A stretch of DNA of 64,000 nucleotides. Origin: Terriglobia bacterium. Lineage in GTDB: Bacteria; Acidobacteriota; Terriglobia; Terriglobales; Acidobacteriaceae. The notes below the pieces were generated by a model that was given only the letters and a program-made list of their open reading frames with translations, was not told the DNA's origin and made no database searches. Every line of letters begins with the position of its first letter. Within the stretch, counting starts at the first letter, position 1. The stretch covers positions 62,001 to 126,000 of the forward strand of contig JAVUPY010000088.1 of assembly GCA_032252755.1 (NCBI GenBank), in the 5' to 3' direction. The position numbers were made by a program, and so were the translations under genes. This document shows positions 2,801 through 52,276 of the stretch, one piece after another.

Positions 2801-2956
2801 AGTCCTCCTTGGGGCAGTTTGGTGGCTTCGCTCTCTACGCCGTCATCACGGGCGAAGCCGCAACTACGAGGTTGAGTGCAGGACCGGCAATTCCTGTCAA
2901 CATTGTTTCACTGAGAATCCGGAACCCTTCTCACCAACAAAATAAGTGCAAAGACT

Positions 2957-3604
2957 TTACACCAAAAGCCGGAGAAATTGCTCGGATGCGTGTGCCGGAT
3001 CATGCAACAGATCGCCAATAACCGCCACCGAATCGGCGCCGGCGTCGATTACGGACCGGGCATTTGCCCGAGTGATGCCGCCAATCGCGACCAGCGGTTT
3101 TGACGTGAGCGCTCGAGCGGCCCTGACACCTTCTAACCCGACGACCGGGTCAGGGTTTTCCTTGGTAGAAGTCGTGAATACGGGGCCGATTGCGATGTAA
3201 TCCGCGGGACCCATGGCGGCCAGCCTTGCCTGATCGGCATTGTGCGTGGAAACCCCGATCCAGCAATGGTTTCCAAGGACAGCGCGGGCGCCTTCCGGGG
3301 AAAGGTCTTCCTGGCCAAGATGAACGCCGTCGAAGCCTGCGGCGAGGCAGAGATCGGCGCGGTCATTCATGAAGAGGGTTCGATCTGGACCGAGGACGCG
3401 CCGCAGCTCTCGTGCATGCGAGAGCATGTCCCGGGAACTCATATTCTTGGCGCGGTATTGAAAGAGAGTGACGCCAGAGGAAGCGAGTTCGAGGGCAAAA
3501 TCGCAAATGGCTGTGGTTAGTTGGTCCGGAGAAGTTCGGTCCGCGAGCAAACCGGTATCGATGATCGCGTAAAGCCGAGGCAAATGGAGAGGACGATCGG
3601 TCAT
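2957..3604 (-). CDS. thiE: Thiamine-phosphate synthase
   Basis: Cytoplasmic TIM-barrel enzyme joining the pyrimidine and thiazole moieties (HMP-PP plus HET-P) to thiamine phosphate. Family landmarks are visible: QYRAKN near residue 50 (pyrimidine site), LFMNDRADLCLAAGFDGVHLGQEDL around 80-105, IGVSTHN, the phosphate-binding GPVFTTSTK, and VAIGGIT near the end. The 215 residues match the usual length. A GTG 18 nt upstream (3622) also opens the frame, but it lies inside a perfect hairpin repeat (3618-3647), so the ATG at 3604 is preferred. It is the only thiamine gene here and lies downstream of accC, separated by that repeat. No TPP-riboswitch pattern is seen in front of it. Confidence 0.92.
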   Translation of the reverse strand: MTDRPLHLPRLYAIIDTGLLADRTSPDQLTTAICDFALELASSGVTLFQYRAKNMSSRDMLSHARELRRVLGPDRTLFMNDRADLCLAAGFDGVHLGQEDLSPEGARAVLGNHCWIGVSTHNADQARLAAMGPADYIAIGPVFTTSTKENPDPVVGLEGVRAARALTSKPLVAIGGITRANARSVIDAGADSVAVIGDLLHDPAHASEQFLRLLV

Positions 3605-47710: not shown

Positions 47711-48619
47711 TCACGCGAGCCTCCCCGCCGTTCCCTCTTCTTCCGCTTCAGAAGTCGGGCAAAACGGGTACGGAATCCGTTCTTCCGCCGCGACCGCCTC
47801 TGCTTCATAGAACGACTTGCTGCGATCGCAGATCAGCGTCGGCAAATCCGAATTGAGCGCCGCGACTTCAACCGGGAACAGGTGCTGCGCCGCGAAATCG
47901 ATCGCTTTCGGCTGCACGATCCCGCCGCCGATCTCGATTGCTTCCTGCCAAGTCAACGTCTTGAATTGTCGCGGCTCGGCTTCTGATGTCGCGGGATCGA
48001 ATTCGAAAATTCCATCGACATCTTTCACCAGCCGGCAGCGGTTCGCCTCGATCTTCTGCGCGATGAACACGGCCGTCAGGTCCGACCCGCCCCTTCCCAG
48101 CAGAGACAGCGATCCATCCGGCAACCGTCCCACGAATCCCGGCGCGACGATCACCGGCGTTTGCTCGAACACTCGATGCACTTCCGCGGCATTGATCTCC
48201 ACCGGCTCCGAGTTGAGCACTGCCCCATGCGTTCGCAGCCCAAGTCGGGTCTCATCCAGAATCGCGCACCCGATTCCCGCCCGATCCAACGCGAGCGAAA
48301 GCAGCGCCGCAGACGTCGCCTCGCCCGTCGCGAGAAGCGCGGCTACGGAATGATCATTGATGTTTTCGCCGAACGACTTCGCGAGCGAAAGCAGTGTATC
48401 GGTCGTATTCCCTATTGCCGAGACGACAGCGACGACACGATGGCCGGAATCGATCCAGCGGCGAATTTCTTCCACCGTGTTGGGGAGGTCCAATTCACTG
48501 CACAGGACCGAGCTACCGAATTTCAAAACGATTACGGGATACCGGCGCACCGCATCCGGCGAGACACCGCCGTGGCTGGCCAGCGTGGGCAGACGAAAAT
48601 TCTTCTGAGACGACACTAC
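47711..48619 (-). CDS. Aspartokinase catalytic domain without ACT domains
   Basis: Predicted ATP-dependent phosphorylation of aspartate, first step toward lysine, threonine and methionine. The 302 residues show VIVLKFGSSVL (usually KFGGTSV), VVAVVSAIGNTTDTLL, LATGEATSAALLSLAL, FVGRLPDGSLSLLGRGGSDLTAVFIAQ and KDVDGIFEFDP, all in aspartokinase order. The chain ends soon after the kinase fold, so the ACT regulatory repeats of usual LysC (about 400-450 residues) are absent. GTG 48619 has AAGGGAG upstream and is preferred; an upstream TTG (48655) sits in the U-run of a leader hairpin. Another amino-acid kinase activity cannot be excluded. Confidence 0.82.
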   Translation of the reverse strand, partial: VVSSQKNFRLPTLASHGGVSPDAVRRYPVIVLKFGSSVLCSELDLPNTVEEIRRWIDSGHRVVAVVSAIGNTTDTLLSLAKSFGENINDHSVAALLATGEATSAALLSLALDRAGIGCAILDETRLGLRTHGAVLNSEPVEINAAEVHRVFEQTPVIVAPGFVGRLPDGSLSLLGRGGSDLTAVFIAQKIEANRCRLVKDVDGIFEFDPATSEAEPRQFKTLTWQEAIEIGGGIVQPKAIDFAAQHLFPVEVAALNSDLPTLICDRSKSFYEAEAVAAEERIPYPFCPTSEAEEEGTAGRLA

Positions 48620-48665
48620 GAATCTCCCTTCGAGGTTGAGCGTTATTCGGGCCAAAAACAGAATC

Positions 48666-48760
48666 GCCGCCTTTGGAAAACCCCCAGGCGGCCGCTCAGT
48701 GATGGGAGATTGTCAGATCGTTGCTTCAGGCTCCCGACGCTGGCCAGACACCGCCTGGGG
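48666..48760 (-). promoter_or_regulatory. Structured leader with mutually exclusive hairpins (riboswitch/attenuator candidate)
   Basis: On the minus strand CCCCAGGCGG (48760-48751) can pair perfectly with CCGCCTGGGG (48691-48682), enclosing a nested GGGAG/CTCCC pair (48735-48731 with 48708-48704). The 3' arm can instead form GCCGCCT (48692-48686) with AGGCGGC (48672-48666), followed by GATTCTGTTTTTGG. The two folds exclude each other, the layout of an antiterminator/terminator switch. It does not match the lysine, SAM-I, T-box or TPP motifs as I remember them. Confidence 0.55.
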
Positions 48761-48852
48761 TGCACATGGCCATATACATTCGGGATATCTGCTGCAAATA
48801 CATAATCAATCCGTTTTTTCCCTCACGTCACAAGGTGGTGTGAGGTGGATTC

Positions 48853-48880
48853 AGTGTATCAACCGAGCCGGAATTGTCAA
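48853..48880 (-). promoter_or_regulatory. Promoter of the aspartokinase leader
   Basis: On the minus strand TTGACA (48880-48875), 16 nt, TACACT (48858-48853). A start near 48846 would give a leader of about 228 nt before the GTG at 48619, long enough for the structured element. Confidence 0.55.
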
Positions 48881-48938: not shown

Positions 48939-50276
48939 TTACGCCTCGGCCAGCACAGCATCCACGGTCTGCACGTCAACCAGTCCGCGACAGCCATAGA
49001 TGGCAGGCAAAACTTTTTCTGCTGCGAATTTCCGGCGCAACTCGGCTACCTTTTCCGTTCCCGAACGATACGCCGGCAGATACATTCGCCCCAGCAGCGG
49101 ATGCCGTCCCCACGCGCCTGAGAGTTTGTCGGCGCGCTCTTCGGTAACCAGGAAATCATTCCGCAACGTCTTCGCGACCTCTGCCTGCGGCCGTCCTTCC
49201 TGCCACGTCAGGTATGACGAGTGATTCTTCGCATCATCCTGCAGCAGCGCCAGCAGGACACCAATCTGAAGGTCTTCGTCCGGCAACTGCTCGACGTCGG
49301 TGACGCCATACGCGATCAGGATCGCGTTGTTCGCGATGCCCTCGAACAGCGTCGCCGCCCGCGTGTTCATCGTCAGCACAGTCGCTTCGAACCCGGCTAG
49401 GCCGCGCGCATACAAATTCTGCAGATAAGCAAAGGTTGTCACGTGCCCCGGGACGACTTCATGGCTGATCAACTGCTCGAACTCCGGTTCCGTGATTTGC
49501 AGCGAGGCGTTGATCTCATACGTCGCCTCATATTTCGGGCTGCCATCCGCATTGCGCGCGCGGCCAACGTAGTTCATCGAACCCGAGAACCACGCATCTT
49601 TGATGGGGAGGAAATCGATGTTCGCGCGCGGAACTCCGTGTAGTTCCTTTGGGAGATAGGGCAACAAGTTTTTCTCGCTTAGCCGGTCGTAGTGCGCGAT
49701 CACTGCCGTGCTCAGTGCGCGAACCGATGCCATCGGAATCACGCGCTCCTTGCGCCACGCATCTACCGCCGGAAGAATTCCGTTCGAAGTCGCATACCCC
49801 GCCCGACTCAGCAACTCTGTGACCCGCTCGCGCTTTTTCTCCGGATGCGACGGCTCCGGCGCCCGCGACGTCGATGCTTCGACGCAGCGCGAATACGGAA
49901 CTGCCGGCCCTTTCCCGAGGATCTCCATCGCGAGGTCCCACATTGCCTGCAGCGATACCGCGAGGCCCAAAAGATAGCTGCGCCGCGTTCCATCGAGGCT
50001 CCCTGCTGCGTCACGCACGCCGCCGATTGCCTTCGGCAGGTCGACTTCCTTCAAATATTGCTCCACCGCCGCCCGATCCACCTTCGGTCCGGAGACGCCG
50101 CCAGTCTCGCGCACCCGCGCCGCCGCGGGCGTCGTGTACGCAACCGGCAACGGTTCGCCCGAAAACCACGAGTCCGCAATGAACCGTCCCGTTCCCGACG
50201 GACACATGACGTCTCCGCCCCACAGGGTGTCGATTCCAAGAACCGCGTCCGCGACAAAACGCCCAAGCTGATCCAT
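48939..50276 (-). CDS. Putative DUF885-like zinc metallopeptidase
   Basis: A 445-residue protein without signal peptide. The metal motif HEVVPGH (about 273-279) in EQLISHEVVPGHVTTFAYLQNLYARGLAG resembles the HExxPGH of DUF885-type peptidases, and a possible third ligand Glu lies in AATLFEGIANNAILIAYG downstream. The rest is helical. Its ATG shares one base with the stop of the OPT transporter (TAATG), so the two are translationally coupled. Import of oligopeptides followed by cytoplasmic hydrolysis is the natural reading. Actual peptidase activity is inferred. Confidence 0.75.
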   Translation of the reverse strand: MDQLGRFVADAVLGIDTLWGGDVMCPSGTGRFIADSWFSGEPLPVAYTTPAAARVRETGGVSGPKVDRAAVEQYLKEVDLPKAIGGVRDAAGSLDGTRRSYLLGLAVSLQAMWDLAMEILGKGPAVPYSRCVEASTSRAPEPSHPEKKRERVTELLSRAGYATSNGILPAVDAWRKERVIPMASVRALSTAVIAHYDRLSEKNLLPYLPKELHGVPRANIDFLPIKDAWFSGSMNYVGRARNADGSPKYEATYEINASLQITEPEFEQLISHEVVPGHVTTFAYLQNLYARGLAGFEATVLTMNTRAATLFEGIANNAILIAYGVTDVEQLPDEDLQIGVLLALLQDDAKNHSSYLTWQEGRPQAEVAKTLRNDFLVTEERADKLSGAWGRHPLLGRMYLPAYRSGTEKVAELRRKFAAEKVLPAIYGCRGLVDVQTVDAVLAEA

Positions 50277-52276
50277 TACGCCTCCCTCGATTTATTCAAT
50301 GAGCGGAACCAAACATAGCAGCATAGCGCAACGAACAACACAGCCGAGACCGTCTGCGAAACCGGCACGTTGTCGAAGAAGGGAGTATGCACCCAACTCT
50401 CCTTGAAACCCGGCAGTAGTCGTAACGCCGCGCCGAACACTCCACCCAAGGCTCCTCCGGCCATTAATCCTGAGGCAATAATCACTCCACGCTCGCGAAT
50501 CGTCCTTCCTCGTTCGCCATTAACCTTCGCCGCCCTCTTATTCAGGAAATGCGAGAGGAATCCGCCCACCAGCGCCGGAGTATTCAATTCCAGCGGCAGG
50601 TACATCCCGAGCGCAAATATCAACGAAGGCTGTCCGAGCATTTCCAGAATAAGCGCAATGAAGGCGCCTACGCCGAAAAGCATATACGCCACTGGCTGAT
50701 GGCTCATGAAACCCTCGACCAGTGCCTTCATAATCGCCGCCTGGGGCGAAGGCAGCACCGGAAGCGTATTCCCAGGCACGGCCTCGCCGAACTGGAACGT
50801 CTTCGCCAGCATCACGATCGTCAGTCCCGCTGCCGCTGCCGAGAACAGCACGCCCAGGAATTTCACCTTCTCTTGCGACGCCGGCGTCGAACCCAACCAA
50901 TAGCCCGCCTTCAGGTCTGTAATCAGCTGTCCGGAGATTGACAACGCCGTGCATACCATTCCGGCAATCGCCATCACGAAGAACATTCCCGTCGTGCCGG
51001 AAACGCCAAACCGCAGCAGCACCACGGACGAGATGATAATCGTCAGCATCGTCATGCCGGAGACCGGGTTGCGCGCCGTCGTGGCAATCGCGTTTGCGGC
51101 GACCGACGCAAAGAAGAATGAGAACACCAGGGTCATTGCGACGCCTATCGCCACCGCAACCATGCTCGCATGCAGGGTCCCCATGAACACCGCGACGCCT
51201 ATCGCGCTGAAAATGACGCTGAGCAGGATCGTGGTCATGGAGATGTCGCGGTCCGTGCGCACAGAACTGGCGACTTCGCCTTTGTGAAATGCCTTCAAGG
51301 CGATCCCGAACGACCCCGCAACAATCTTCAGCGACTTGATGATCCCGAAAATTCCCGCCGTGGCAATCGCACCCACGCCGATGTAGCGAACGTAGTTGCT
51401 GTAAATCGCAACGGCGCTCATGTCGTGAATCGGAACTTTGCCCGGGTAGACCGCGGTCGTAACGTGGCTTCCTATAAACCACACCAGCGGCACCAGCACG
51501 AAGTTCGAGAGCACGCCGCCCGCGCAGAGAATCATCGAACTGCGCAACCCCATCACGTACCCGAGCCCGAGAATGAAGCTGATCGCGTCGAAGTTGAATA
51601 CGATCCGTGCGCGATCGTTCAGCGTGCGCATCAGCGGTACGAACTGGAAATTGACGTATTCTTTCCAGACCTCGAACGTCGTCACGAAGAAGTCGTAGAC
51701 GCCGGCGATGAACGTCGCTTCGAGCAGCAGTTTCGCCTGCGAACCGCCCTTTTCGCCCGTGACGAGAACTTCGGTGATCGCCGTCGCTTCCGGGTATGGC
51801 AGCAGCCCATGCATCTCGCGCACGAAATACCGGCGCAGCGGAATGAGGAACAGAATCCCAAGACATCCGCCCGCCAGGCAGATGAAGATTGTCTGCAGCG
51901 GATGTGGGCTGAGGTTCAGGATGTAGAGCGCCGGTAGCGTAAAGATCGCGCCTGCGACTACACCTCCCGCAACCCCTCCAATTCCCGTGATGATCACGTT
52001 CTCGAGCAGAGTCGACCGCCGCGCGTAAACACGCGCCAACCCGATCGCGAGGATCGAGATCGGGATCGCCGCTTCCATCACCTGCCCAACCTTCAGGCCG
52101 GAATAGGCCGACGCAACGGTGAACACGACGCACAGGAAGACGCCCCAGCCCACCGATCGCCAACTGACTTCGGGAATCTTCGCTTCTGATGCGATTACCG
52201 GCGGATACTCTTCGCCGGGTTTCAGCGGCTCATACGCTTTTGTGGAGAGGGATTTTGCGGTTCCGACCTCGGACAT
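50276..52276 (-). CDS. OPT-family oligopeptide transporter
   Basis: A 666-residue inner-membrane carrier of the oligopeptide transporter family, which takes up peptides or metal-chelate compounds. About 15 or 16 membrane segments are evident. The first membrane part reads SVGWGVFLCVVFTVASAYSGLKVGQVMEAAIPISILAIGLARV, and LLPYPEATAITEVLVTGEKGG is the conserved OPT loop. ATG 52276 has AGGAGG upstream. The downstream DUF885-like peptidase gene overlaps by one base, supporting a peptide substrate rather than a siderophore. Confidence 0.93.
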   Translation of the reverse strand: MSEVGTAKSLSTKAYEPLKPGEEYPPVIASEAKIPEVSWRSVGWGVFLCVVFTVASAYSGLKVGQVMEAAIPISILAIGLARVYARRSTLLENVIITGIGGVAGGVVAGAIFTLPALYILNLSPHPLQTIFICLAGGCLGILFLIPLRRYFVREMHGLLPYPEATAITEVLVTGEKGGSQAKLLLEATFIAGVYDFFVTTFEVWKEYVNFQFVPLMRTLNDRARIVFNFDAISFILGLGYVMGLRSSMILCAGGVLSNFVLVPLVWFIGSHVTTAVYPGKVPIHDMSAVAIYSNYVRYIGVGAIATAGIFGIIKSLKIVAGSFGIALKAFHKGEVASSVRTDRDISMTTILLSVIFSAIGVAVFMGTLHASMVAVAIGVAMTLVFSFFFASVAANAIATTARNPVSGMTMLTIIISSVVLLRFGVSGTTGMFFVMAIAGMVCTALSISGQLITDLKAGYWLGSTPASQEKVKFLGVLFSAAAAGLTIVMLAKTFQFGEAVPGNTLPVLPSPQAAIMKALVEGFMSHQPVAYMLFGVGAFIALILEMLGQPSLIFALGMYLPLELNTPALVGGFLSHFLNKRAAKVNGERGRTIRERGVIIASGLMAGGALGGVFGAALRLLPGFKESWVHTPFFDNVPVSQTVSAVLFVALCCYVWFRSLNKSREA

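Follow-up and report, generated by a model that had tools for sequence, protein, structure and literature searches.

A probable methionine-codon attenuator native to a cystathionine gamma-synthase-like gene of Acidobacteriaceae, found in one genome before a fused aspartokinase gene

In the classical amino-acid attenuators (the trp, his, thr, leu, and ilv leader peptides), the position of the ribosome on regulatory codons selects between mutually exclusive RNA helices, and the leaders end in intrinsic terminators; to our knowledge, methionine is not among these classical cases. Methionine genes are also controlled from the 5' leader by the SAM riboswitches (SAM-I to SAM-V). In plants, cystathionine gamma-synthase (CGS) is controlled by the MTO1 arrest peptide of CGS1, which lies within the enzyme itself and acts through mRNA decay.

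A candidate leader peptide, MetL, has been proposed for metBA of Campylobacter jejuni, with transcription termination right behind its stop codon, and was found only in C. jejuni, C. coli, and C. doylei (PMC3847290); a translation signal is found in PMC11955535. Another candidate MetL leader peptide precedes metNIQ of Streptomyces lividans (PMC8079986). A 2010 survey contains almost no predicted attenuator with an assigned function in Acidobacteria (PMC2965389), and in the open-access literature we found no description of a leader such as the one presented here in that phylum, an absence that is not proof.

The leader described here resembles the MetL of C. jejuni in being a short open reading frame (ORF) with three Met codons directly 5' of a CGS gene, for which limitation of Met-tRNA is the proposed signal; compared by description, it differs in belonging to another phylum, in carrying one switch arm inside the ORF, and in masking the downstream Shine-Dalgarno (SD) sequence. 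With the MetL of S. lividans, it shares a Met-containing peptide ahead of a methionine gene, an ORF that looks leaderless (here in some relatives), and the lack of a clear intrinsic terminator; the latter controls a transporter and its peptide sequence is not alike. As in the classical attenuators, ribosome position on regulatory codons would select between exclusive helices, but the output helix, which covaries, hides a ribosome-binding site (RBS), and only some of the leaders have a U-tract, several relatives lacking one. As for the plant MTO1 peptide, translation of a peptide is proposed to control CGS, here through a separate ORF and an RNA switch. Unlike the SAM riboswitches, the Acidobacteriaceae leader matches no such Rfam family.

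The window, i.e., the whole stretch of 64,000 nucleotides that was analysed, carries this leader on the minus strand at about 48846-48617, ahead of a gene whose start codon is GTG at 48616. The first-pass annotation had placed here a promoter and a riboswitch- or attenuator-like leader with two pairings that exclude each other. The promoter (48880-48853) was recovered with 10/12 matches as the sole match in the 1.5 kb scanned, and TTGACA-N16/17 promoters of a similar kind lie 5' of many related leaders. The central arm is also where it had been placed (48691-48682), its upstream partner lies at 48760-48751, 59 nt away, and its downstream partner at 48672-48666. That annotation had overlooked the upstream ORF with its Met codons, the helix that sequesters the SD, and the fused origin of the gene behind. 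The parts of the leader are as follows.

48853-48880, minus strand: promoter TTGACA-N16-TACACT, from the promoter scan
48821-48845, minus strand: 5' terminal hairpin CCTCAC...GTGAGG, read by eye and unscored
48726-48803, minus strand: leader peptide ORF MYLQQISRMYMAMCTPGGVWPASGA, 25 codons followed by UGA, its frame conserved across 34 leaders
48765-48779, minus strand: Met codon cluster AUG UAU AUG GCC AUG, the proposed sensing codons (Met codons at 48779, 48773, and 48767)
48751-48760, minus strand: arm 1 (1'), CCCCAGGCGG, within the leader ORF and directly after the Met codons
48704-48711, minus strand: anti-SD AAUCUCCC, between the ORF and arm 2, partner of 48628-48621
48682-48691, minus strand: arm 2 (2'), CCGCCTGGGG, partner of 1' (anti-sequestering) or of 3' (sequestering)
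48666-48672, minus strand: arm 3 (3'), AGGCGGC, partner of the GCCGCC part of arm 2
48658-48654, minus strand: U-run TTTTT (U5), a weak, late U-tract after arm 3
48621-48628, minus strand: SD GGGAGAUU of the downstream gene, masked by the anti-SD AAUCUCCC

A 5' terminal hairpin, lying just 3' of the -10 box and 5' of the leader ORF, can also be seen in L002, L032, L036, L037, L104, and L108, with sequences that differ and arms that match within each genome (CCCGC/GCGGG, CTCGC/GCGAG, and CTCAC/GTGAG).

For the pairing of arm 1 with arm 2 across 34 distinct leaders, 98.9% of the cells are paired (31-55% in slid controls), four pairs show double, compensatory changes, and 0 of 500 shuffles were as high in pairing or covariation score, a permutation count that is inflated by related sequences. 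One arm pair goes from C-G through U-G to U-A, so that the peptide PGG becomes LGG, and in the divergent leaders L115 and L117 the arm sequences differ yet still match. The small self-hairpin of arm 1 covaries too, more weakly (84% paired). The rival fold, which covers the downstream SD, shows clade-specific covariation: anti-SD and SD match with a mean score of 20.9 within their own leader vs 15.6 across genomes, and 0 of 500 re-pairings were as good, again a count inflated by relatedness; L041 and L052 have no clear anti-SD. Both helices use arm 2 and are thus mutually exclusive. In the window, the hairpins 48760-48682 (-38.2 kcal/mol) and 48720-48612 (-40.1 kcal/mol) have near-equal energies, and the fold of the complete leader is more stable than those of 199 out of 200 shuffles (z -3.36). 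The first-pass reading of an attenuator-like leader with two exclusive pairings is supported, and the pairings are conserved and covary. This comparison indicates that the leader is a real, selected RNA switch.

Concerning the output of the switch, the earlier reading of transcription attenuation is supported only in part. The U-run begins about 7 nt past the stem in the window leader and no terminator-like site was called on the minus strand in the window scan, so intrinsic termination is weaker than had been implied. Since GGGAGAUU is complementary to AAUCUCCC, the hairpin presumed to be a terminator is the inner part of a longer hairpin that masks the RBS. Masking of the start site is thus better supported as the readout than transcription termination. 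With no intrinsic terminator called and the U-tract late or absent, the classical transcriptional subtype (trp/his/thr) is excluded, and a translational one is not affected.

The frame of the leader ORF is kept in the coding stretch of the 34 leaders, with one single-base indel, and the spacer behind it is rich in indels. The usual Met cluster reads R-M-x-M-A-M, and three Met codons lie near this position in 31 of the 34 leaders; L118 and L124 have the MAM pair only, and in L116 the Met codons are retained but spaced slightly differently. In L119 and L142, from one genus, the loss of arm 1 goes with that of Met codons two and three, and the downstream hairpin has been retained, which suggests that these codons and arm 1 form one sensing unit. 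Met alone persists throughout the peptides of intact leaders; AUG has no synonym, and codon choice cannot separate this invariance from a constraint on the RNA. The Arg codon preceding the first Met is CGA in nearly all leaders, a fixed choice that was unexpected and may reflect a slow codon or a base-level constraint. No strong SD precedes the leader ORF, and some relatives have a leaderless look: in L038, L110, L111, L113, and L114, only a few bases separate the end of the -10 box from the ATG, so the transcript that yields their peptide is probably leaderless.

These observations bear on two other ways of explaining the leader. The first is a ligand-binding riboswitch with an incidental reading frame, as the first-pass annotation had offered. 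A long structured leader with two exclusive folds would in principle need no protein, but the unpaired bases that are conserved belong to in-frame AUG codons, the 34 leaders preserve the frame, and outside the ORF nothing like a compact, conserved aptamer core can be seen. Moreover, the Rfam scan found no family at gathering score in the whole window, nothing credible in the window leader at E values up to 10, and no match in the leaders of relatives, in agreement with the earlier remark that no lysine, SAM-I, T-box, or TPP pattern could be recognized. The conserved core being an ORF with Met codons, we regard a riboswitch as very improbable.

The second is arrest by the nascent peptide, in which R-M-x-M-A-M, together with the P-G-G and P-A-S found in most leaders, would, like the plant MTO1 peptide, stall the ribosome when it senses a metabolite such as S-adenosylmethionine (SAM) or Met and so operate the same RNA switch. 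The nearly invariant Arg and Ala of the motif, the preservation of PAS through synonymous changes in many leaders, and the almost constant CGA would fit such a peptide. However, PGG changes to LGG, LAG, or LVG with compensating bases, i.e., the RNA pairing is kept and not the residue; PAS is missing in L036, L037, L038, L115, and L122; L041 and L118 stop soon after PGG; and only the Met codons persist throughout intact leaders. Although R-M-x-M-A-M itself could act as an arrest peptide despite these losses, we consider this explanation unlikely. Instead, we think it probable that the leader is a methionine-codon leader-peptide attenuator whose native target is a CGS-like gene.

The native target was revealed by the relatives. 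A DNA search alone yielded three clear homologues, the remaining rows being chance matches; each precedes a gene for a PLP enzyme of Cys/Met metabolism closest to CGS, and for two of the three, no aspartokinase ortholog turned up in the genome at the chosen cut-off. The family was sought by pattern in 399 genomes of the class and in 84,980 named species genomes, and by covariance model in two further searches; leaders were detected in 33 of 300 Acidobacteriaceae genomes, from 14 genera, and in these searches in Acidobacteriaceae only. Outside this family, the matches of the pattern scan were all due to chance and none had a CGS gene behind it, and the covariance model found no credible member in the 399 class genomes, where one weak partial match, in G322, had an E value of 8.8e-4.

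All the leader homologues that were read have a CGS-like gene downstream. The protein behind L002 contains a Cys_Met_Meta_PP domain (E 1.9e-137), and its best NCBIfam model is cystathionine gamma-synthase, with a score below the cut-off that leaves the exact reaction uncertain. Among 150 genomes searched, the leader is present in 15 of the 21 that have a close CGS gene. The six CGS genes without a detected leader belong to genera g32 and g80, and one of them carries the eroded leader L142; the other upstream stretches read in g32/g80 contain no leader, although in the case of L143-L145 the match lay on the minus strand and the plus strand was read, so that the true upstream region may be a different one. 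In the relatives, the leader is followed by CGS and then, in some genomes, by a bifunctional aspartokinase-homoserine dehydrogenase, in which no ACT domain was found. By this comparison the leader is not native to aspartokinase but to the CGS-like gene. The former suggestion that the enzyme lacks ACT and control had thus moved to the RNA proved wrong, since the relatives' bifunctional enzyme also lacks ACT and the leader comes from CGS.

Other copies show how the element varies. In one genome, the decayed leader L120 (G332:C1:2154970-2155089) lies 5' of a broken CGS gene, with the intact copy L124 elsewhere in the same genome. Two related genomes have second, divergent copies, L115 (468-592) and L117 (945-1068 of the reverse strand), which precede another Cys/Met PLP enzyme gene of the same superfamily as CGS and have an extra hairpin around the stop codon. 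Between its GCTC arm and its SD, the L061 leader (about 2945-3193) has an insertion of about 50 nt that is itself an inverted repeat, CCCCAACAAGCGC...GCGCTCGTTGGGG.

Given the ORF, the helices and their covariation, the native gene, and the fusion described below, all brought out by comparison, we infer Met-tRNA as the signal, and likewise the direction of control and the order of folding. In the proposed mechanism, a ribosome would translate the short ORF with its Met codon cluster mid-way and arm 1 as the coding sequence directly 3'. Under a shortage of charged elongator Met-tRNA, the ribosome would wait at the first or second Met codon and cover the upstream side of the small self-hairpin of arm 1, leaving arm 1 free to capture arm 2 once this has been transcribed. 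Captured arm 2 could not build the long hairpin (2':3' plus anti-SD:SD), so the RBS would stay open and the next gene would be made. When Met is plentiful, ribosomes would read past arm 1 and reach the stop codon; the long hairpin would form, and the gene would be off.

A ribosome footprint usually extends 15-16 nt from the P site, and with this value assumed, a ribosome having the second Met codon in its A site covers to about the base before arm 1. When the intermediate transcript (up to arm 2) was folded, stalling at the first or second Met codon gave an arm 1:arm 2 probability of 0.99, vs 0.07 for stalling at the third, where the waiting ribosome would cover arm 1; the open form should thus prevail under starvation and the masked form under fluent translation. 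Because 1':2' likewise forms in the ribosome-free intermediate (0.81), repression has to rely on active translation. At full-length equilibrium with the ribosome at the second Met codon, the masking fold wins in many leaders (mean 1':2' probability 0.38), and therefore the model needs folding during transcription. Taken together, the equilibrium and ribosome-free results imply that it needs coupling of translation and transcription.

In the window, this leader precedes a gene of composite origin, whose two parts are as follows.

48551-48616, minus strand: first 22 codons of the missing CGS-like gene (VSSQKNFRLPTLASHGGVSPDA), aligned with MSSDKDFRVSTLAIHGGLSPDS of L002
47711-48550, minus strand: in-frame continuation, an aspartokinase domain with 63% identity to the kinase half of L032; the homoserine dehydrogenase half is missing

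The 301-residue product opens with VSSQKNFRLPTLASHGGVSPDA, the counterpart of the CGS start MSSDKDFRVSTLAIHGGLSPDS; then comes VRRYPVIVLKFGSS, the kinase start, from which 251 residues align gap-free with L032 at 63% identity. Thus, by alignment, the window gene is a deletion fusion in which CGS is missing after codon 22 and the kinase half has been joined in frame. The domain search of the product found AA_kinase only and no ACT domain. Its last 28 residues compared with the homoserine dehydrogenase tail gave a best p of 0.01, in one relative of seven, which is no more than suggestive of homology. With CGS removed, the Met switch would now control a bare aspartokinase domain, and the fusion protein is presumably active.

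It is quite possible, with a likelihood a little short of even, that the leader and kinase fragment of the window are a decaying remnant without present function and that the switch is real only in relatives. Neither the CGS body nor the homoserine dehydrogenase half remains; the genome encodes a separate homoserine dehydrogenase, two other aspartokinase-like genes, and other CGS-family genes, none of which is of the leader type (best 43% identity); and a decayed leader-gene pair exists elsewhere (L120). Against decay, every leader element is perfect in the window, and the kinase has no stop or frameshift and a branch of 0.40 vs 0.17-0.53 for its nearest relatives, which is not exceptional. 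A remnant in the window alone is compatible with the methionine-codon attenuator, which says what the leader is. Only tentatively, as a rather doubtful extension, do we propose the full scenario: a Met-sensing translational attenuator family confined to Acidobacteriaceae and unrelated in sequence to described leaders would have been re-aimed here by an internal deletion, so that Met starvation would induce a free-standing, feedback-insensitive aspartokinase from the fused gene.

Beside this locus, 48939-50276 on the minus strand encodes a 445-residue protein with a HEVVPGH metallopeptidase-like motif and no Pfam or NCBIfam match at E 0.001. The start of its gene overlaps the end of an OPT oligopeptide transporter gene (50276-52276), and the two are perhaps a peptidase-transporter pair.

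In the papers that we found, control of methionine genes by a leader peptide has been only proposed and is unproven; the Acidobacteriaceae leaders offer a clear comparative case with a putative translational output. The family would give an attenuator of Acidobacteria a sensor, a switch, and a target, with natural variation enough to test each part. The window itself would represent a natural rewiring, in which the regulator was left intact, its own gene was removed, and a neighbouring enzyme domain came under its control.
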